From a virus, in the IMG/VR virus record IMGVR_UViG_3300025301_000075, positions 1 through 29,709 of that record: a DNA stretch of 29,709 nt; one strand, given 5' to 3'. Position 1 is the stretch's first letter. Each line of letters begins with the position of its first letter. Shown here piece by piece: positions 12,018 to 29,709 of the stretch. The position numbers and the translations under genes are program-made. The notes under the pieces are model-generated. The model searched no databases. It was not told the origin of the DNA and saw nothing but the letters and a program-made list of their open reading frames with translations.

Positions 12018-13543
12018 AACTCGTAATACAACTCGCTGTTAGGTTCCATGATATGGAGGGATTGTTTAGCCCTCGTAACTGCCACATAAAAAACCCTATG
12101 CTCTATGGAAGGGTTTTGGAGGTACGTTTTATAAGCTGCGTAGGATAGTTCCGGTATCACCAGAACATTATCACATTCACCCCCTTTCATGGAGTGAATG
12201 GTACTGACTTTAATTCTTGGATGTTTGACATTGTCCCCCCGTCTTAAAGCGTTAAGTATATAGTTCTTGGTATCAATATCAATCTTGGTCAATGCTTCAT
12301 GCCACCGGATACCTAGTTTCCACCTTAAACCAAAACGATCAGCCGCCATATTAATATCAATAAGTTCTTCCTGATTTGAATCAAGGAAGGTACGACAACG
12401 AGGACCAAATCCTTTCACATAATCCTCCCCGGAAGTCATCTGCATGTACACACTTCTGAGTTCAGCAATTGAAATCTGATCTCCTTTTGCCAGTTTCTCC
12501 CAGGAAATGATGGCGTCATATATTCTGGAATCAATGCTGGGACGGCCATGACGACTGTAGACCCACCCTTCTTCTCTTAGTTTGTTGGCGTATTTTGTAG
12601 CAATATAATTTGTCCTCGCAAGAATGCACCATTCTCCCTCATCAAAAGGAACATCCCAAAAGTTCTGGTAATAATGAACCGAACCCTCTTCGTCTCGAGG
12701 AGACCACTGTTTGGGTGCTCTTCCCTCAATACGGGACACAATACGCTGTGCTTCCTCCCACACTCTACGAGGGAGTCTATAAGACTGAGTCAAAACATGC
12801 TTCTTGTCTGTAGCCGTTAAGAAAGCGTTAACGTCTGCACCCTGGAAATTCATAATGGCTTGGTCATCATCGCCAGTAAAAACCTGAACTTCAGGAGTGA
12901 GACGGAGTACATCAATCATCTCCCACTGAAGGGTAGATAAATCCTGCGCCTCATCCACAAACAAGGCATCTATATCAAGTGCCTCTCCCCTTGCTACAAA
13001 ATTTTCAATCATATCAGTGAAATCGATTTTCCGGCGTACCTTCTTGTAATTTAGATACGCATCTATCAGACGGTTTAATTCAGACCAGTACAAGTCATAG
13101 TTTTCCGACTGCCGGTAACTTTCTTCCAGCGAAATACGAAGGCTACGGGAGAGCTGATATATGTTTAAATATACATCCCCTTGGGAAAACCCAAGGATAT
13201 CAAAATCACTTTCAAGACCATTTTTCTTTGATTCCGTAAAAAGAAGCCCTACTGACTTCCCCAAGGTTTTTAAATCTGAGCCACGCATAACATTGTCAAC
13301 CTTATATCCTCCACTGCGAAAAGCCATGGCGTGAAGCGTCTGGAAATGAGGAAGACTGTCTTCTTCAAGACCCCAGTCCTTGCATACTCGTTCACGGCTT
13401 TCTTGTGCTGCCTTACGTGTGAAGGAGACACAGGCAATTCTTTCAGGAGGGATGTTGTCCTCCAGGCAGTTGCGTATGAGGTTGGAAAGGTTTTGGGTTT
13501 TGCCGGTTCCCGGTGGCCCCAGATAAGTTATGGGGTCTGTCAA
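12014..13543 (-). CDS. UvrD/PcrA-like superfamily 1 DNA helicase
   Basis: An ATP-driven helicase of 509 residues for phage replication or recombination. Motif I GPPGTGKT (9-16), Ia VSFTRKAAQE, II DEAQD (197-201), III TGDDDQAIMNFQGA (from 223), IV QSYRLPR, V STIHSMKGGE and VI YVAVTRAKQ are all present, so the enzyme looks intact. The start is TTG at 13543, overlapping the primase stop as TTGA. No ATG exists between the upstream in-frame stop at 13562-13564 and the Walker motif, and GAGGAAG lies a few bases upstream, so the TTG start is well supported. It is shorter than UvrD/PcrA (about 700 residues), as usual for phage versions. Confidence 0.92.
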   Translation of the reverse strand: MTDPITYLGPPGTGKTQNLSNLIRNCLEDNIPPERIACVSFTRKAAQESRERVCKDWGLEEDSLPHFQTLHAMAFRSGGYKVDNVMRGSDLKTLGKSVGLLFTESKKNGLESDFDILGFSQGDVYLNIYQLSRSLRISLEESYRQSENYDLYWSELNRLIDAYLNYKKVRRKIDFTDMIENFVARGEALDIDALFVDEAQDLSTLQWEMIDVLRLTPEVQVFTGDDDQAIMNFQGADVNAFLTATDKKHVLTQSYRLPRRVWEEAQRIVSRIEGRAPKQWSPRDEEGSVHYYQNFWDVPFDEGEWCILARTNYIATKYANKLREEGWVYSRHGRPSIDSRIYDAIISWEKLAKGDQISIAELRSVYMQMTSGEDYVKGFGPRCRTFLDSNQEELIDINMAADRFGLRWKLGIRWHEALTKIDIDTKNYILNALRRGDNVKHPRIKVSTIHSMKGGECDNVLVIPELSYAAYKTYLQNPSIEHRVFYVAVTRAKQSLHIMEPNSELYYEL

Positions 13544-15072
13544 AACGGGACTTCCTCTTCCTCAAAGGTCACTGGTGGTAGATCCACTTCCCCCTTGTCC
13601 ATTTCCGGGACGTACCATACCCGAACTTCTTTCCACTTATCCTTGTTATCTTTAAAACGATATCTCTTATTGGACATATCACCGTTGTTAAGTTCCTTTA
13701 GTCTTTCCGTTACCTGACCACGGGTATAGGCACCAAAGTTGTGGCGCTTCAGAAATTCCTGGAGACCACTAAGCTTGAAGTAGGTTACGCCTTCATCAGT
13801 CCAGGGTTTGCCTGTGAGAAGTTCTTCCGGGCTTTGTGCCTTGATCCTCGAAGTACAGTACATCTCAAGGAGTTCGTTGAACTGTCCCTTGTGAGTGAGT
13901 TCTTCCGGCACCGAAATACGTGTAGCCGTTTCCAGTAGCTTGTCTATCAGGTCACGCCAGTCAGGCTCTTTCATTTTAGGAGGCATCTTGTACATCTGTT
14001 CCATACACGCCCTCTGAAATTCCACCTGCATCTGCAATTGTTTGGTTGCAAGTTCCAGACGAGAACCGTCCACATCCACAAACCAGACAGGAGGTTCAGA
14101 TTCCACCACGGTTAATCCGCCAAGAGTAGCCGCCCCTTGGCTGGTGCTAATGCCATACTTGCGTGTTCTGCATAAGGCACGGTTACAATGACTGTGCAAA
14201 GGTTCCTGCTTACATGAGTAGATATAATCTTTCTTCTCCAACTGCTTTTGGATGGTTACTATTTCCGAAGCTGGTAAAGGAGGACTGCAATAGTCCTGAT
14301 TGGCTTTCTCCAACAACTGTTTCCACTTGGACGGATCAACCATTTTGAAATAGACCCCTACATTTAGTAAGGTATTATTCCTTCCCCCTTCTGGTATCCC
14401 GAACTCTGCTATTTGCTGAAGACATGGGGGGCCGTGCGGAAGGACGGAAGCATCTACTCCGATGACGCATTCTTTCAATGTTTTGAAATCAAGCCGCATA
14501 CTTTCTGCGCGATCAAGGAACTCTTCAAGGGAAAGACTTTCCCCCTTCTTATCAAGACCGTACCGTGTCGTATGCTTTGAATTAAAATAAGGGAGATTTA
14601 TAAAATTTCCGACATCCCCACGTTCTACTATTACTTCTTCCTGTTTAGGAAAAATCTCACAAGTCCCCCAGCCTAACGCTGATGCGAACTCTGCAAGTTT
14701 GTCACGGATTTCAGATGCCGCAACGCTCTCAGACATGAACAGGAATAAGTGGGCGCCCCCCGATTTGGATCTGCAAAGAACCAAAGGAAGCTTTAAATTT
14801 TCTACCTTCTTATATAAAGAGACAAGGTCGAGATTGTAATCGTCAATGTCCAATGCCCCAAACCAACAGCAATTGGTTTCATCGATGGGGATGCTGCCAA
14901 CTCCCAGTTTACCGTCCAGATGATCTTGGACCAGATCAAGTGTCAACGGTTCACGGACAATGAAGCTCTTGGCTTTTTTCTTACCCTCACGGTGATTATC
15001 AATAACCGTGGTTTGGCCATGTGCTCCATTATACCCTTTAAAAAGGGATATAAATCGTTCAGTCGGATTCAT
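13540..15072 (-). CDS. Archaeo-eukaryotic-type (TOTE-like) DNA primase
   Basis: A 510-residue primase that would make replication primers. The N-terminal catalytic domain has ALDIDDY with the Asp75/Asp77 metal site, SKSGGAH with His108, and GNFINLPYF. The middle has PEGGRNNTLLNVGVYF, typical of primase C-terminal regions, and a Cys/His cluster (Cys287, His293, Cys296, Cys301) like the zinc element of TOTE-type AEPs. It is not a DnaG/T7 gp4 type, and no helicase domain is fused. The protein ends FEEEEVPF, an acidic tip ending in Phe that is matched by the SSB-like protein encoded just upstream in the operon. It overlaps the helicase gene (TTGA). Confidence 0.85.
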   Translation of the reverse strand: MNPTERFISLFKGYNGAHGQTTVIDNHREGKKKAKSFIVREPLTLDLVQDHLDGKLGVGSIPIDETNCCWFGALDIDDYNLDLVSLYKKVENLKLPLVLCRSKSGGAHLFLFMSESVAASEIRDKLAEFASALGWGTCEIFPKQEEVIVERGDVGNFINLPYFNSKHTTRYGLDKKGESLSLEEFLDRAESMRLDFKTLKECVIGVDASVLPHGPPCLQQIAEFGIPEGGRNNTLLNVGVYFKMVDPSKWKQLLEKANQDYCSPPLPASEIVTIQKQLEKKDYIYSCKQEPLHSHCNRALCRTRKYGISTSQGAATLGGLTVVESEPPVWFVDVDGSRLELATKQLQMQVEFQRACMEQMYKMPPKMKEPDWRDLIDKLLETATRISVPEELTHKGQFNELLEMYCTSRIKAQSPEELLTGKPWTDEGVTYFKLSGLQEFLKRHNFGAYTRGQVTERLKELNNGDMSNKRYRFKDNKDKWKEVRVWYVPEMDKGEVDLPPVTFEEEEVPF

Positions 15073-15111: not shown

Positions 15112-15873
15112 TTAAAATGGAACGTCTTCAGCCGACTGATCCGTAATAGGGACTAACTCTTCGGGTGGGAGAAGGATGTTCAATGCAGCAGGGTTCCATT
15201 CCTTCGCCTCAGTATAAGCTTCCATGCTTGGCACCACTCCCTCAAGGGAAATTGACCAGGAATTCCACTTCCCTTTATCGTTGCCGTCCGGGACTGTTTT
15301 AAGACGGTACGTGTTGGCATAAGACGGAAGTGTTTTTCCATTCAGCTTTTGCATCATCATCATCGAAAGCCACATCCGGGACTTCTTCACTTGGGTCTTT
15401 TTCATGTCCACAATGGCACTTTCCAAGGTGCCGTCATCATGAATAATCTTGATGTAGTGTTGAGCGGTGCGGACAAGCTCGTTACCACTGTCCAGAATTT
15501 CAAGTCCGGTGGATTGATCTCTCACAGCCTGTTTTACTTCATTAGATTCGATTGCGAGTTCCCCCACAAACCCACCACCGTCCACTCTGGGAACAAATTC
15601 CAGAAACTTCATTTGAAAGTAGACCGGAATAACACTCACCCCTTCCTCACCATCCCAAAATCTCTGGGTCACAGTATTGAAGACATCGCCCACTGAGGCG
15701 CCCTCAATAAAGTCCGGTTCATTTTTGTTAATTTGGGGGGAAAGGGACTGAATTATCCTCAGAAAAGGAACCTGCATATCTGAGGTGGATACTTCTTCAA
15801 AACCCTTACCGGAATCTTCGGCAAAGGCGTTCTCTAGTTCAGCGGATAATCCGCCATTCGTTTTCTTAGCCAT
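15112..15873 (-). CDS. Probable single-stranded DNA-binding protein (gp2.5-like role)
   Basis: A 253-residue protein, first large gene product of the leftward operon before the primase. It has a beta-rich middle (GVSVIPVYFQMKFLEFVPR, then LVRTAQHYIKIIHDDGTLE) and an acidic C-terminus ending SAEDVPF, very like the interaction tip of bacterial SSB and T7 gp2.5. Similar proteins in phages are often annotated as hypothetical or SSB-like. AAAGGAGC about 8 bases before the ATG at 15873 is a strong ribosome site, fitting a protein needed in quantity. The fold cannot be proved by eye, so the role rests on the tail, operon position and family resemblance. Confidence 0.6.
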   Translation of the reverse strand: MAKKTNGGLSAELENAFAEDSGKGFEEVSTSDMQVPFLRIIQSLSPQINKNEPDFIEGASVGDVFNTVTQRFWDGEEGVSVIPVYFQMKFLEFVPRVDGGGFVGELAIESNEVKQAVRDQSTGLEILDSGNELVRTAQHYIKIIHDDGTLESAIVDMKKTQVKKSRMWLSMMMMQKLNGKTLPSYANTYRLKTVPDGNDKGKWNSWSISLEGVVPSMEAYTEAKEWNPAALNILLPPEELVPITDQSAEDVPF

Positions 15874-16810: not shown

Positions 16811-16946
16811 GATGCTGTCTAAAGCAGCAATCCAGTTAATAAAATTTTCTTCCCTAAACTTCGGGTTAGTAAAGGGACCCCAGATGAAAAGGACTAGAAA
16901 ACATCCAGGGTCCCTTTATTTTGCGCCTCTTACCGCACTTAACCCA
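16811..16946. repeat. Structured direct repeat, copy 1
   Basis: First of two imperfect copies (second at 16992-17140). Elements in order: a small hairpin TGCTG/CAGCA (16813-16829), then CCAGTTA, a 33-base stretch identical in both copies (16856-16888), a long hairpin, and ACTTAACCCA at the end. The long hairpin has arms 16871-16886 and 16902-16917: 14 of 16 positions pair, around a 15-base loop, followed on the plus strand by ATTTTG, a terminator-like shape for rightward transcription. Read leftward, it lies in the leader of the replication operon. Confidence 0.8.
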
Positions 16947-16991
16947 ATCAAATGACCATAGGAGAACGCAAGGTCTTCGTAGTTCTTGATA

Positions 16992-17140
16992 ACTGCTGAT
17001 ACAGCATCCAGTTATAAACTCCCTGCCAAACTTCGGGTTAGTAAAGGGACCCCAGATGAAGAAGATTCCAGAAAAAACATCTAGGGTCTCTTTACCGCGC
17101 AGTTTAAGGGTCCTAACTCAAAAGTGCGCTACTTAACCCA
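16992..17140. repeat. Structured direct repeat, copy 2
   Basis: Second copy, offset by 172 bases. The small hairpin is TGCTG-ATA-CAGCA (16994-17006), the identical 33 bases are 17028-17060, and the long hairpin has arms 17043-17058 and 17078-17093 with 15 of 16 positions able to pair (one G-T). No T run follows. It ends with ACTTAACCCA (17131-17140). Both hairpins are kept despite base changes in the second arm. AGGGTCC at 17107-17113 could pair with the left arm as an alternative, as in attenuators. Confidence 0.8.
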
Positions 17141-25111: not shown

Positions 25112-25519
25112 TTACCCTTCTTCGGGCGCATTATCCGTGGACGGAACAACCGGGATTCCAGCAATTTTGCCCCCGGCGATCTTCTCTTTACTACCTTCAT
25201 CTTTCCGTCTCTCGTTATCCATTAGAACAATCGCACGGGCCAGAACCGAAGTACCCCCTTCTTCCCGACCCGTATGCAGACTGTGTATCAACTGATCCAA
25301 AGGAACTCCGTACTGAAGCGCAAGGGATAGTATCACGGTTGCATCGTCCAACAGGATGTCCATGTCGCTACCGCTCTTGGACCCCCGTATGAATACTTCT
25401 CCTATTATACCTGTTTCGGGTTCCACGCCAAATGACACATGGTACTTACCACTCTCTGTTTTCAGGCCCGTTGTTACATTCAACCTTCTGTTCTCCAGCT
25501 TCCGCCGCTCTGATTGCAT
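25112..25519 (-). CDS. TSCPD-domain protein
   Basis: A 135-residue protein with RRLNVTTGLKTESGKYHVSF, GEVFIRGSKSGSDMDIL and DDATVILSLALQYGVPLDQL, matching the TSCPD domain found near the C-terminus of B12-dependent ribonucleotide reductases and as free-standing proteins in phages. The free form has no established activity; a link to ribonucleotide reductase is a guess, since no reductase gene is in the window. The tail after residue 105 is charged and Gly/Pro-rich. Its start overlaps the methyltransferase remnant by 74 bases. Confidence 0.75.
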   Translation of the reverse strand: MQSERRKLENRRLNVTTGLKTESGKYHVSFGVEPETGIIGEVFIRGSKSGSDMDILLDDATVILSLALQYGVPLDQLIHSLHTGREEGGTSVLARAIVLMDNERRKDEGSKEKIAGGKIAGIPVVPSTDNAPEEG

Positions 25520-25946
25520 ATCCTATTTCCTCTGCGATTTGCGGGATGATCGAGTTTCCCAAGGCACGGAGTTGAGGTACTCTGTCGGGTAGCCCATCAA
25601 CCAGGCGACCCACTTGGGGTTCAATTTCCCAGTAGTTTGCGGCTGCTCTACTTGAACGGTAACCTCCAGACGCCTCTTCGGATCTCCCTTGTCTACTTCG
25701 CTTTGCGCCACTCCGTTTGCGCTGGACACCCGTGGTGTCGGCCACATTCGGGTCGGGGTCGGGGAGGTCGGGTCGGGTGACATTCTTTATATCTCCTAAG
25801 ATCTGGGTTCGCGGCCAATGGGATTTTAGCACCAGGCGGCAGTAAGGTTCCAACTCAACAAAACAGGTCGTGCGAAAAAAGCCGGTGGCCTCGAGACCAA
25901 GCGCGAAGCCACCGATACCAGAAAACAAATCCAGAGTTCTGAGCAT
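25446..25946 (-). pseudogene. Internally deleted DNA cytosine-5 methyltransferase
   Basis: 166 residues from the ATG at 25946. Residues 1-56 are a normal Dcm N-terminus: LDLFSGIGGFALGLEATGF (SAM motif I) and CFVELEPYCRLVLK (II), up to LGDIKNV. The C-terminus is also normal: EPQVGRLVDGLPDRV then RALGNSIIPQIAEEIGYAI (motifs IX/X). Between them the Pro-Cys catalytic motif IV, ENV motif VI and motif VIII are absent, replaced by PDLPDPDPNVADTTGVQRKR and basic sequence. The frame is intact, but the protein cannot methylate DNA by the usual mechanism. The junction is a GTCGGG tract. It may be a decayed gene or a SAM- or DNA-binding remnant. Confidence 0.75.
25750..25777 (+). repeat. GTCGGG tract with G-quadruplex pattern
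   Basis: Five G runs of 3-4 bases separated by TC, TC, AGGTC and TC on the plus strand, which fits the simple G-quadruplex rule. It encodes the Pro/Asp-rich junction of the deleted methyltransferase on the opposite strand. The same hexamer is concentrated again at 29537-29709. Confidence 0.7.
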
Positions 25947-26010
25947 CAAATAATCTGGATCAGATTTACGAGAAGTTCCCCAATCCAGACCAACAGAGTA
26001 AAATCAAAGG

Positions 26011-27812: not shown

Positions 27813-28033
27813 GACTTTTCCCTTCTTGCTTGATTGAAAATCTTCATCGCTCCACTCCGCTTGGCAAAACCATACTCGTCTGCGAAGTCCATGGACGATT
27901 GCAAAAAGAGGCGGGGGCTTTCCCCCACCTCCAGTGCATTGGCGATAACCTTGGGGTCTCTCGTTCTGGCAACCTGTACATCATCATGCCAAACCTCAAT
28001 CTTCCCAAACTTGGCGCACACGAAAATATCCAT
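27809..28033 (-). CDS. Hypothetical small protein
   Basis: A 74-residue protein starting at 28033, where the ATG shares a base with the preceding TAA. The N-terminal beta segment MDIFVCAKFGKIEVWHDDVQ is followed by a helical, basic C-terminus. No motif was recognised. It is coupled by ATGA to the DnaJ-type gene. Confidence 0.6.
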   Translation of the reverse strand: MDIFVCAKFGKIEVWHDDVQVARTRDPKVIANALEVGESPRLFLQSSMDFADEYGFAKRSGAMKIFNQARREKS

Positions 28034-28428
28034 TAACCCTTTTCCATCATACGCTTGACAAAAGTCGCTGGTGCGACCCGCTTAGTGCCATCAGAACATT
28101 CTAACATGATTTTGTTTTTACTGGCTTTGGTTTTTAAACCCGTGATTTTGTAGGTGAGACCCCTATGGGTGAAACTGTCGTCCAGCCAATCTGGATTAAG
28201 GTCGCATAAGGACTGAGCGTATCTGGTGAAGTCTTCACGCTCACGTGTCTGAACAACACCATCTTCGCTAACGGTGTTCGCTGTAATCTTGGTAGTGAAA
28301 CGATTGCCTTGGAATGAGATGTTCCCGATTTCCAAAGTAATGCCGAAGTGATCAGCTACATCATTCAAGGACGTGTTGATAGCCGACCTGATGTCGGCTA
28401 AGTTGGACTTTTCAAAAGAGGTAATCAT
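28033..28428 (-). CDS. Conserved phage hypothetical protein, first gene of second minus block
   Basis: A 131-residue protein. The ATG at 28428 with AAGGAG seven bases upstream is preferred over an ATG at 28467, which would lie upstream of the predicted transcript start. MITSFEKSNLADIRSAINT, FGITLEIGNISFQGNRFTTK and THRGLTYKITGLKTKASKNK are typical of a common phage/plasmid protein with no known function. The fold appears alpha then beta barrel-like. It is the promoter-proximal gene next to the origin-like region. Confidence 0.7.
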   Translation of the reverse strand: MITSFEKSNLADIRSAINTSLNDVADHFGITLEIGNISFQGNRFTTKITANTVSEDGVVQTREREDFTRYAQSLCDLNPDWLDDSFTHRGLTYKITGLKTKASKNKIMLECSDGTKRVAPATFVKRMMEKG

Positions 28429-28450
28429 TCCAGTTCTCCTTTCTATAAAT

Positions 28451-28480
28451 AAAGTACCATTAATCATGGGAGAGGGTCAA
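28451..28480 (-). promoter_or_regulatory. Candidate sigma70 promoter for second minus block
   Basis: On the minus strand TTGACC (28480-28475) is a near-consensus -35; after 18 bases TACTTT (28456-28451) is a weak -10. Predicted start near 28444, giving a 16-base leader with AAGGAG before the ATG at 28428. The inverted arm at 28487-28509 lies just upstream, where an activator or second promoter could act. Confidence 0.4.
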
Positions 28481-28486
28481 GTTATA

Positions 28487-28509
28487 CCTATATAGGAGCG
28501 ATTTGAAAA
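28487..28509 (-). promoter_or_regulatory. Left arm of promoter-like inverted repeat
   Basis: Read on the minus strand, TTTTCAAATCGCTCC leads into the palindrome CCTATATAGG. The right arm at 28713-28735 has the same sequence with one change (22 of 23) and opposite orientation, so each points toward one of the divergent genes. The ending TATAGG resembles a single-subunit phage RNA polymerase start, but CCTATATAGG could also be a repressor site. Confidence 0.65.
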
Positions 28510-28547
28510 AAAAGTTTTTTTTTTTCAGTTTTTTAACAAAAAAAGTG
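28506..28547. other. Homopolymeric A/T-rich tract
   Basis: Runs of eight A, eleven T, six T and seven A follow each other within about 40 bases, beside the left inverted arm. It would melt easily and could be the unwinding element of an origin; homopolymers of this length can also carry sequencing errors. The rest of 28429-28743 has no gene. Confidence 0.6.
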
Positions 28548-28669
28548 TCAAAGTGTCACGAACCAAAAATAGATACGCTGTAACCATTGACCACTAACAA
28601 TTACAGCGATTTCAACTCGTGGCATTGCTCGTGGCACTTACGGCAGAAGGTATACGTTTCGTGGCACTT
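28543..28669. repeat. Iteron-like array AAGTG(T/C)CACG
   Basis: Five related sites: AAGTGTCA at 28543-28550 directly followed by AAGTGTCACG at 28551-28560, then in reverse orientation CGTGGCATTG at 28618-28627 and CGTGGCACTT at 28630-28639 and 28660-28669. They surround the dyad at 28576-28608 and lie next to an A/T-rich tract. This arrangement is typical of replication-origin or operator sites for an initiator or repressor. Confidence 0.65.
28576..28608. repeat. Inverted repeat CGCTGTAA/TTACAGCG
   Basis: Perfect 8-base arms at 28576-28583 and 28601-28608 around a 17-base centre. The dyad is central in the iteron-like array and fits a protein-binding site or cruciform in an origin. Confidence 0.7.
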
Positions 28670-28712
28670 CTTCGTTCGTGCGAAAGTTGAAAAATCATAA
28701 ACAGGTACTGGA

Positions 28713-28735
28713 TTTTGAAATCGCTCCTATATAGG
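28713..28735 (+). promoter_or_regulatory. Right arm of promoter-like inverted repeat
   Basis: TTTTGAAATCGCTCC followed by CCTATATAGG-type palindrome (28726-28735), ending 8 bases before the terminase ATG at 28744. It mirrors the arm at 28487-28509. No proper -35 hexamer stands 16-18 bases before TATATA, which argues for a phage-specific promoter or an operator rather than a plain sigma70 promoter. Confidence 0.65.
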
Positions 28736-28743
28736 ATGCAGGT

Positions 28744-29325
28744 ATGGGAAGACGATTAGAAAACAAAGCTTCTGAAATTGAAGAGGCCCATGGCCGGAAA
28801 CTAACAAATCGGCAAAGGGAATTTTCCAGGCATTATGTTGATGGCACTCACTCAAATGCGGAGTGTGCCAGACTTGCTGGTTACGCAACTGACTGCGCTA
28901 AAATTCAAGCGCATAAACTTCTGGATTCAAAGTTCTTCCCACATGTTGCTGAATACATTTCAGAGTTGAGGGAAGATAGAGAACGCAAATACGGGGTCAC
29001 TCTTTTAGGCCAACTCAAAAGACTGAGTGAACTATCTATAGGTGCGGAAGAGGCTGGACATTTTTCGGCAGCAATCAATGCAGAGAAAACCAGATCGGCT
29101 TTGGGTGGTCTTACTGTTGATAGACGTGAGACAAATCATTTTCATGCAATTGAAAACATGAGTCGTGAAGAAATTGAAAAACGTTTGGCAGAACTTCGAC
29201 AGAATCATCCTAGTGTGTTTATAGATGCTGATTACGAGGTAGTGAATGGCGCAAAAGCAAGAGACATTACTGTGGAACAAATTGAAAGAAAAGATCCCCC
29301 CGCACTGGAACACAACACGGATTGA
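28744..29325 (+). CDS. terS: Terminase small subunit
   Basis: A 193-residue DNA-packaging protein that recognises phage DNA and loads the large terminase. The N-terminal DNA-binding part KLTNRQREFSRHYVDGTHSN, AECARLAGYA and AKIQAHKLL (to about residue 65) fits the Terminase_2 pattern. A central helical region (VTLLGQLKRLSELSIGAEEA) probably makes the oligomer ring, and GGLTVDRRETNHFHAIENMS with REEIEKRLAEL forms the C-terminal part. The start is close after the right promoter-like arm, with AGGA seven bases upstream. It overlaps the following nuclease gene by 80 bases. The large subunit is expected beyond the right edge. Confidence 0.85.
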   Translation: MGRRLENKASEIEEAHGRKLTNRQREFSRHYVDGTHSNAECARLAGYATDCAKIQAHKLLDSKFFPHVAEYISELREDRERKYGVTLLGQLKRLSELSIGAEEAGHFSAAINAEKTRSALGGLTVDRRETNHFHAIENMSREEIEKRLAELRQNHPSVFIDADYEVVNGAKARDITVEQIERKDPPALEHNTD

Positions 29326-29709
29326 AAATCGTTATGGGGGAGGTATCCCTGATGTACATGTTTGTGCGGAGGGTTGTTCTTTTTGGATAGAACTCAAAGT
29401 AACAAAAACTAACCGATTAAATATCTCATCCCATCAAGTTGCTTGGAATTACGCCTATTATAAATCAGGAGGGGTAAGTTTTTTCCTAGCCCACCCCCTC
29501 TCTTCCCCTAACCTATATTTGTTTGGGGGGGACCATGGTCGGGAGTTAGTTAAACACGGTTTGCGAACTGTGAGTTTGGGTTCTGAAACCGGAACCGTGG
29601 TTCCTTGTCTTTGGTCGGGGCCAGACTGGTCGGGGTTGGTCGGGTCTTTGATCGGGATCAGTCGGGGTCGGGTCGGGGTACATGGTCGGGTCGCCGATGA
29701 CCAGGTCGG
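29246..29709 (+). CDS. PD-(D/E)XK (VRR-NUC-like) nuclease, runs off the window
   Basis: Partial gene, at least 154 residues, open to the right edge. The ATG at 29246 has GAGGT five bases upstream. MAQKQETLLWNKLKEKIPPH is followed by ENRYGGGIPDVHVC (Asp36) and FWIELKVTKTN (Glu49, Lys51), the PD...ExK catalytic set, then SSHQVAWNYAYYKSGG. Such small nucleases in phages resemble VRR-NUC or Holliday-junction enzymes and often lie between the terminase subunit genes; they may trim branched DNA before packaging. After about residue 105 the sequence becomes Gly/Trp/Ser-rich, encoded by GTCGGG repeats, and may not belong to the original domain. Confidence 0.75.
   Translation, partial: MAQKQETLLWNKLKEKIPPHWNTTRIENRYGGGIPDVHVCAEGCSFWIELKVTKTNRLNISSHQVAWNYAYYKSGGVSFFLAHPLSSPNLYLFGGDHGRELVKHGLRTVSLGSETGTVVPCLWSGPDWSGLVGSLIGISRGRVGVHGRVADDQV
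29537..29709 (+). repeat. GTCGGG-rich array with G-quadruplex potential
   Basis: At least eight GTCGGG words occur in about 170 bases (for example at 29538, 29614, 29629, 29639, 29661, 29667, 29672 and 29685), plus a related GATCGGG at 29650. Four G runs at 29654-29678 fit the G-quadruplex rule with loops of 2-7 bases. The array lies inside the 3' part of the nuclease frame and continues to the window edge. Confidence 0.75.

Follow-up and report, generated by a model that had tools for sequence, protein, structure and literature searches.

The window, by which we mean the whole 29,709-base IMG/VR virus record analysed here, comes from a tailed phage, marked as such by terminase, tail-length and ejection-type proteins, PolA, a UvrD-type helicase and an archaeo-eukaryotic-type (AEP) primase among its genes, which also include an SNF2-type helicase and relatives of Pam3 gp32–gp34. 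Its nearest annotated phages are distant, namely the Pelagibacter phages HTVC027P and HTVC023P by the terminase small subunit (TerS), and phage DSL-LC04 and others by the primase. A preliminary description had singled out an origin- or switch-like region of 249 bp between two divergent genes, and a leftward ORF (28033–28467) and the rightward terS (28744–29325) do indeed diverge from it. The features of this module and its borders are as follows:

28033–28467, minus strand: leftward orphan gene, 144 aa; likelier start at 28428, with a Shine-Dalgarno
28451–28480, minus strand: possible leftward promoter TTGACC-N18-TACTTT, weak, outside the left arm
28487–28509, minus strand: left mirrored arm, outward (leftward) CAAATCGCTCCTATATAGG, with a T-tract and the conserved TATATA element
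28500–28545, no strand: A/T-rich tract, candidate DNA-unwinding element; conserved in the alignment of relatives
28543–28552, plus strand: left iteron 1, degenerate, AAGTGTCAAA
28551–28560, plus strand: left iteron 2, AAGTGTCACG, exact AAGTG(T/C)CACG
28576–28608, no strand: central dyad CGCTGTAA-N17-TTACAGCG, half-sites 28576–28583 and 28601–28608
28618–28627, minus strand: right iteron R1, degenerate, CGTGGCATTG on the plus strand, two mismatches
28630–28639, minus strand: right iteron R2, AAGTGCCACG, exact AAGTG(T/C)CACG
28641–28650, minus strand: degenerate position of right iteron R3 (CGTNNCA(AAAA) in relatives), placed by comparison
28660–28669, minus strand: right iteron R4, AAGTGCCACG, exact AAGTG(T/C)CACG
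28713–28735, plus strand: right mirrored arm, outward (rightward) TTGAAATCGCTCCTATATAGG
28744–29325, plus strand: terminase small subunit gene terS

The two 23-bp arms are inverted copies of each other with 22 of 23 positions identical (96% over 23 nt), as had been described, and their exact core of 18 nt is the longest exact inverted repeat in the window (span up to 300 bp), a length reached in one of 100 dinucleotide shuffles. Both arms carry CCTATATAGG (28487–28496 and 28726–28735), which occurs nowhere else in the window even when one mismatch is allowed. The A/T tract is equally real (85% A+T over 28500–28545 vs 55% for the window), and the A/T-rich block adjoins the iterons, as is required of an iteron origin, and is conserved in relatives. 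The iteron itself is a 10-bp site, AAGTG-N1N2-AC(G), arranged in two opposed groups upstream of terS; among the five AAGTG(T/C)CACG sites originally proposed, three are exact (28551–28560, 28630–28639 and 28660–28669) and two are degenerate (28543–28552 and 28618–28627). Across the window, sites with up to two mismatches are no commoner than expected by chance, and the distinctive feature of the iterons is their clustering and opposed orientation. The 8-bp dyad is present in the sequence, but is retained only partly, and in the nearest relatives only.

Conservation of the module and of its iteron words

TerS-based searches yielded over 150 loci, with 72 upstream regions less than 90% alike. 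Sequence comparison establishes the module as conserved and single-copy: about 70 distinct relatives keep it at the same place, one copy per genome, which disposes of the possibility, raised with the first description, that its elements lack conservation in relatives. In most relatives the layout is an outward TATATA arm, an A/T block, two tandem plus-strand iterons, a variable centre, three or four minus-strand iterons and a second outward arm. The arms and their spacing (about 229–248 bp) are kept, the arm pair occurring once per genome, and the sequences of the arms vary from phage to phage yet pair within each phage. Each genome likewise has one iteron cluster, the single-locus cluster of short sites expected of an iteron origin, and among nine larger contigs, seven have the module as their best inverted-repeat cluster. 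It invariably adjoins terS across the phage family; in two genomes (G016 and G019) a gene for a T5orf172-domain protein lies between the intact module and terS, so TATATAGG is not simply the ribosome-binding region of terS. We observed T5orf172/MUG113 nuclease-like genes between the right arm and terS at L056:4518–4988 and L062:185–655. Further afield, the terS-upstream repeats of the pelagiphages HTVC023P and HTVC027P differ and our scan recognised no equivalent module there, and the distant phage DSL-LC04 (L271:20552–20771) has mirrored arms with a CCTATAG core upstream of its terS operon. On the other side of terS, the window carries a TCGGG-rich stretch on one strand (29500–29709) downstream of the VRR-NUC gene; TCGGG is strongly enriched from +600 to +3000 after terS in nearly all relatives, and many contigs break in or near this stretch.

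Within the iteron, AAGTG is constant and is followed by a variable part, N1N2-AC(G) in most phages, which forms a word common to the iterons of one phage and differing between phages. Defining the word of each phage by its right-hand sites, we found TA to be the commonest, the others being GG, GT, TT, TC, CC, TACC, TATA, TTCC, TAGC and TTGA. Site pairs within a genome agree in 89 of 128 cases vs 24.6 expected, and no more than 40 did so in any of 5000 permutations; the left word equals the right word in 37 of 62 (13.3 expected). Comparison of near relatives shows these changes to be concerted: L018, L021, L026, L067 and L041 keep their spacers while the dinucleotide changes at three or four sites together, and in G003, G005 and L014 the block is replaced between conserved edges. 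There are exceptions, as the left word differs from the right in L021, L026 and the window (TC left, CC right), and L171 and L168 have mixed words. Stem pairing of left with right iterons was considered and rejected, since mismatched pairs occur and it is same-strand copies that agree; no Rfam match indicative of an RNA element was found in five sources.

A candidate reader of the iteron word

A near-isogenic pair of relatives with different words, G003 (TC) and G005 (TA), served to exclude many candidate readers by comparison. From −9.2 kb to about +3.7 kb their flanks agree at 93–98% (for G003, what lies downstream is represented by its near-identical relative L006), and the 30-column windows just outside the block are 97–100% identical, as against 67–83% in the iteron block. 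The two share one TerS sequence (193 aa, 100% identity) and one XRE sequence, so neither of these proteins reads the word, and given the near-identity of the flanks the reader should be encoded outside that stretch. This removes XRE, one of the proteins originally put forward for binding to the region; another, GcrA, is set aside because no homologue of the GcrA-like gene was detected in most of the module-bearing relatives. No sign of an RHH protein, the third one put forward, emerged in these comparisons. More generally, TerS, XRE, the SNF2-type helicase, VRR-NUC and the first leftward protein are unchanged or do not follow the word in G003, G005 and L014, and the difference in the C5 methyltransferase is confined to a length-variable low-complexity stretch. 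In the window itself a remnant of this C5 cytosine methyltransferase lies at 25446–25949; it matches only residues 11–80 and 311–357 of the G003 homologue, and hence its catalytic middle part is missing.

Outside the stretch shared by G003 and G005, the genes found in nearly all relatives are chiefly those for PolA, the UvrD helicase, the primase, gp33- and gp34-like proteins and structural proteins. Our first attempts at column scoring did not clearly single out a reader, nor did the variable linkers of the primase, the UvrD helicase and gp33. One UvrD column came close to tying with the best; it is identical in the window and in G027 despite their different words, and therefore cannot be the reader. 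The Pam3 gp34-like protein of this set (window 15112–15873) has an SSB-like acidic C-terminal PF tail and a weak, mostly beta model, and is likely a single-stranded DNA-binding protein. Elsewhere in the replication genes we noted a hairpin unit of about 60 nt, present as two tandem copies, between the divergent replication operons (16850–17110; minus-strand fold z = −6.65) and an ARAGORN tRNA-SeC call inside the helicase gene (12869–12964) that is probably a false positive.

The best candidate for the reader of the iteron word, judging from these comparisons, is the phage's own AEP primase, which is encoded about 13 kb from the module together with the helicase and polymerase in a leftward replication operon:

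13540–15072, minus strand: archaeo-eukaryotic-type primase (AEP-TOTE and PriCT_1), proposed iteron reader
13606–13890, minus strand: predicted C-terminal winged-helix domain of the primase, residues 395–489
13663–13665, minus strand: codon of residue 470, which tracks the iteron word
13627–13629, minus strand: codon of residue 482, which tracks the iteron word

The C-terminus of the primase is predicted to run helix-hairpin-helix-helix-strand-strand, the order of a winged helix, and structure comparison returned PadR, IclR, forkhead and plasmid-initiator winged helices with low Z scores (up to 6, for PadR-type and others), the primase model being weak (mean pLDDT 39; 60–70 in the C-terminal domain). 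Two residues of this domain covary with the word. Residue 470 follows N2 (Arg where N2 is C, Glu for G, Gln/Asn for T, and Thr/Gln/Val for A) and residue 482 follows N1 (Glu for C, Lys for G, other residues for T). Of 1664 variable columns, that of residue 470 has the best rank for N2 and that of residue 482 the fourth best for N1; these ranks describe the fit and are not blind, as the pattern was spotted by eye before the final ranking. With 14 dereplicated rows the associations have P = 0.0002 (470 with N2) and P = 0.0019 (482 with N1), and in these rows Arg/Glu at 470 and Glu/Lys at 482 occur without a violation of the rule; the distant G030, with the word TG, has Tyr at 470. Pairings of Arg or Lys with G, Glu with C, and Gln or Asn with A, on either strand, are the chemically usual ones.

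On the primase tree, the word GG arose in three changes (G027, G038 and G045), each time with Glu470 and Lys482, and CC in two (the window and G006), each time with Arg470 and Glu482. The contig G027 has no module of its own; a 2113-bp overlap at 99.9% shows it to be the phage of L005, whose word is GG, and the G027 primase has the Glu470 and Lys482 seen in G038 and G045, which by sequence comparison makes this case the nearest thing to a blind check of the residue rule. The primases of the window (CC) and G027 (GG) are 96% identical, and eight of their 20 differences fall in residues 462–492 (P = 6e-6); synonymous changes show no such clustering in the wing region (Fisher P = 0.002). In the literature searched, the coverage of which was incomplete, we found no phage with a stand-alone AEP primase that reads iterons.

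Function of the module and its parallels

From the sequence evidence we consider it probable that the module is the replication origin of the phage and that the primase recognises it; the outward TATATA elements on either side are probably divergent promoters. The origin proposed in the preliminary description is favoured by the covariation of the iteron word with the primase wing, by the single iteron cluster per genome, and by a cumulative GC-skew minimum at or next to the module. Iteron origins typically have one cluster of iterons next to an A/T tract and a replication protein that reads the cluster, and it is because of this match that we prefer the origin reading. In G008, G028, G029, G031 and G032 the skew, which had been suggested as a check, reaches its minimum at the module or next to it, although it follows gene direction and is not independent evidence. 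Outside the family, the iteron pair has four exact matches, three of them located at replication-type genes (one at the 3' end of a Prim-Pol gene, the others within a replisome-organiser gene and an initiator-like gene), vs none of four for a same-composition control; as the matches equal the control in number, only their location is informative. A scan for the GGGACG pattern gave mostly unrelated matches, among them about 14 GGGACG iterons on an unrelated contig (L343:1600–1890), flanked by a ParM-like partition gene and a 529-aa ORF of no known family. The constant position beside terS in the phage family is not something that origin function requires.

The mechanism that we infer covers iteron binding, melting, the firing of the origin and what the arms do. 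In it, the primase would bind the iterons through its C-terminal winged helix, the invariant recognition helix reading the constant AAGTG half, wing residue 470 the second letter of the variable dinucleotide and residue 482 the first. Once bound to both opposed groups of iterons, the primase would melt the A/T tract next to them and would load the helicase and the polymerase from its own leftward replication operon. As for the mirrored arms with their TATATA, they would probably be outward promoters or sites for a second protein, and initiation may be coupled to divergent transcription.

A transcriptional role of the module, with divergent promoters and autoregulation, is likely from its sequence, and this much of the earlier notion of a switch may still stand. 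That the module serves transcription control only, with −10-like TATATA arms as divergent promoters, the central iterons as the operator of some phage regulator (perhaps the primase regulating itself) and replication starting elsewhere, strikes us as improbable. Both arms conserve their outward TATATA core, however far away the next start codon is, a leftward TTGAC-N17/18-TA element is partly conserved, and the iterons abut the arms from outside in L153, L163, L166 and L175, all of which would suit promoters under control. Set against this, the word covaries with a replication protein and not with a regulator gene, XRE, the same in G003 and G005, does not track it, and sigma-70-like elements score slightly above shuffles leftward and no higher than shuffles rightward. 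Promoters for a single-subunit RNA polymerase were rejected, as no PF00940 was found (in a search whose control was also silent and hence uninformative) and the arms occur only at the module.

We regard it as quite unlikely that the module is a packaging initiation (pac) site, in which TerS would bind the opposed iteron groups around a central cut site; both pac and a pure operator are less likely than a primase-read origin. The module does lie at or just upstream of terS throughout the family, its opposed groups around a centre resemble pacL-pacC-pacR, the pac of SPP1 overlaps the terS promoters (PMC6316719) as well as the beginning of terS, and DSL-LC04 also has a mirrored-arm structure upstream of terS. 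Specificity, however, does not follow TerS, as seen in the identical TerS of G003 and G005 and in L021, L026 and L067, where the helix-turn-helix of TerS is nearly the same and the words are different; in G016 and G019, moreover, the extra gene separates the module from terS. An invertible switch or MITE-like element, the least credible reading despite a 23-bp terminal inverted repeat bounding 249 bp, is refuted for the family, given one position and internal orientation in all relatives read, arms that differ between phages and pair within each, and a genome without any other copy.

If the primase-read origin is correct, a large group of uncultured marine phages gains an origin and an initiator, the primase itself being the origin reader, and a naturally varied and testable protein–DNA recognition code emerges from sequence alone; the origin word would be predictable from the primase, and origin specificity would turn over fast among close relatives. 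More tentatively, we speculate that this marine phage family keeps diversifying its origin specificity, with two wing residues of a stand-alone AEP primase forming an amino-acid-to-base code, and that the concerted switching may reflect an arms race, e.g., with origin-directed T5orf172 nucleases or co-infecting relatives.

Three known systems offer parallels. The SPP1 oriL/oriR and lambda-type iteron origins have direct repeats, a phage initiator and an adjacent A/T-rich unwinding element (PMC6316719); the module likewise has repeats beside an A/T-rich element, with initiator binding proposed, whereas the SPP1 initiator gp38 is not a primase and the SPP1 repeats are not mirrored between outward arms. 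In pRN1-type replicons, an AEP primase is joined to an SF3 helicase and a C-terminal winged helix, with the origin downstream of the gene (PMC4234260). There as here, the C-terminal winged helix of an archaeo-eukaryotic primase is the likely origin-recognition part; however, pRN1 relies on a single fusion protein and on an origin that has a stem-loop and no iterons, while the window has a separate UvrD-type helicase and a proposed iteron origin about 13 kb from the primase gene. The closest parallel, by analogy, is the PLE satellites of Vibrio cholerae, whose origin iterons are read by a RepA_N domain, together with the origin-directed nuclease Odn of ICP1 (PMC8263062). As in PLE, the sequence of the iterons covaries with the domain by which the replication protein binds DNA, and the two form an exchangeable module, although PLE uses RepA and roughly 30-bp semi-palindromic iterons in place of a primase and 10-bp iterons, and the specificity change in our phages looks confined to a few wing residues. 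A nuclease domain of the Odn type, T5orf172, is encoded beside the module in G016 and G019, and this makes an arms race over the origin a possible reading.
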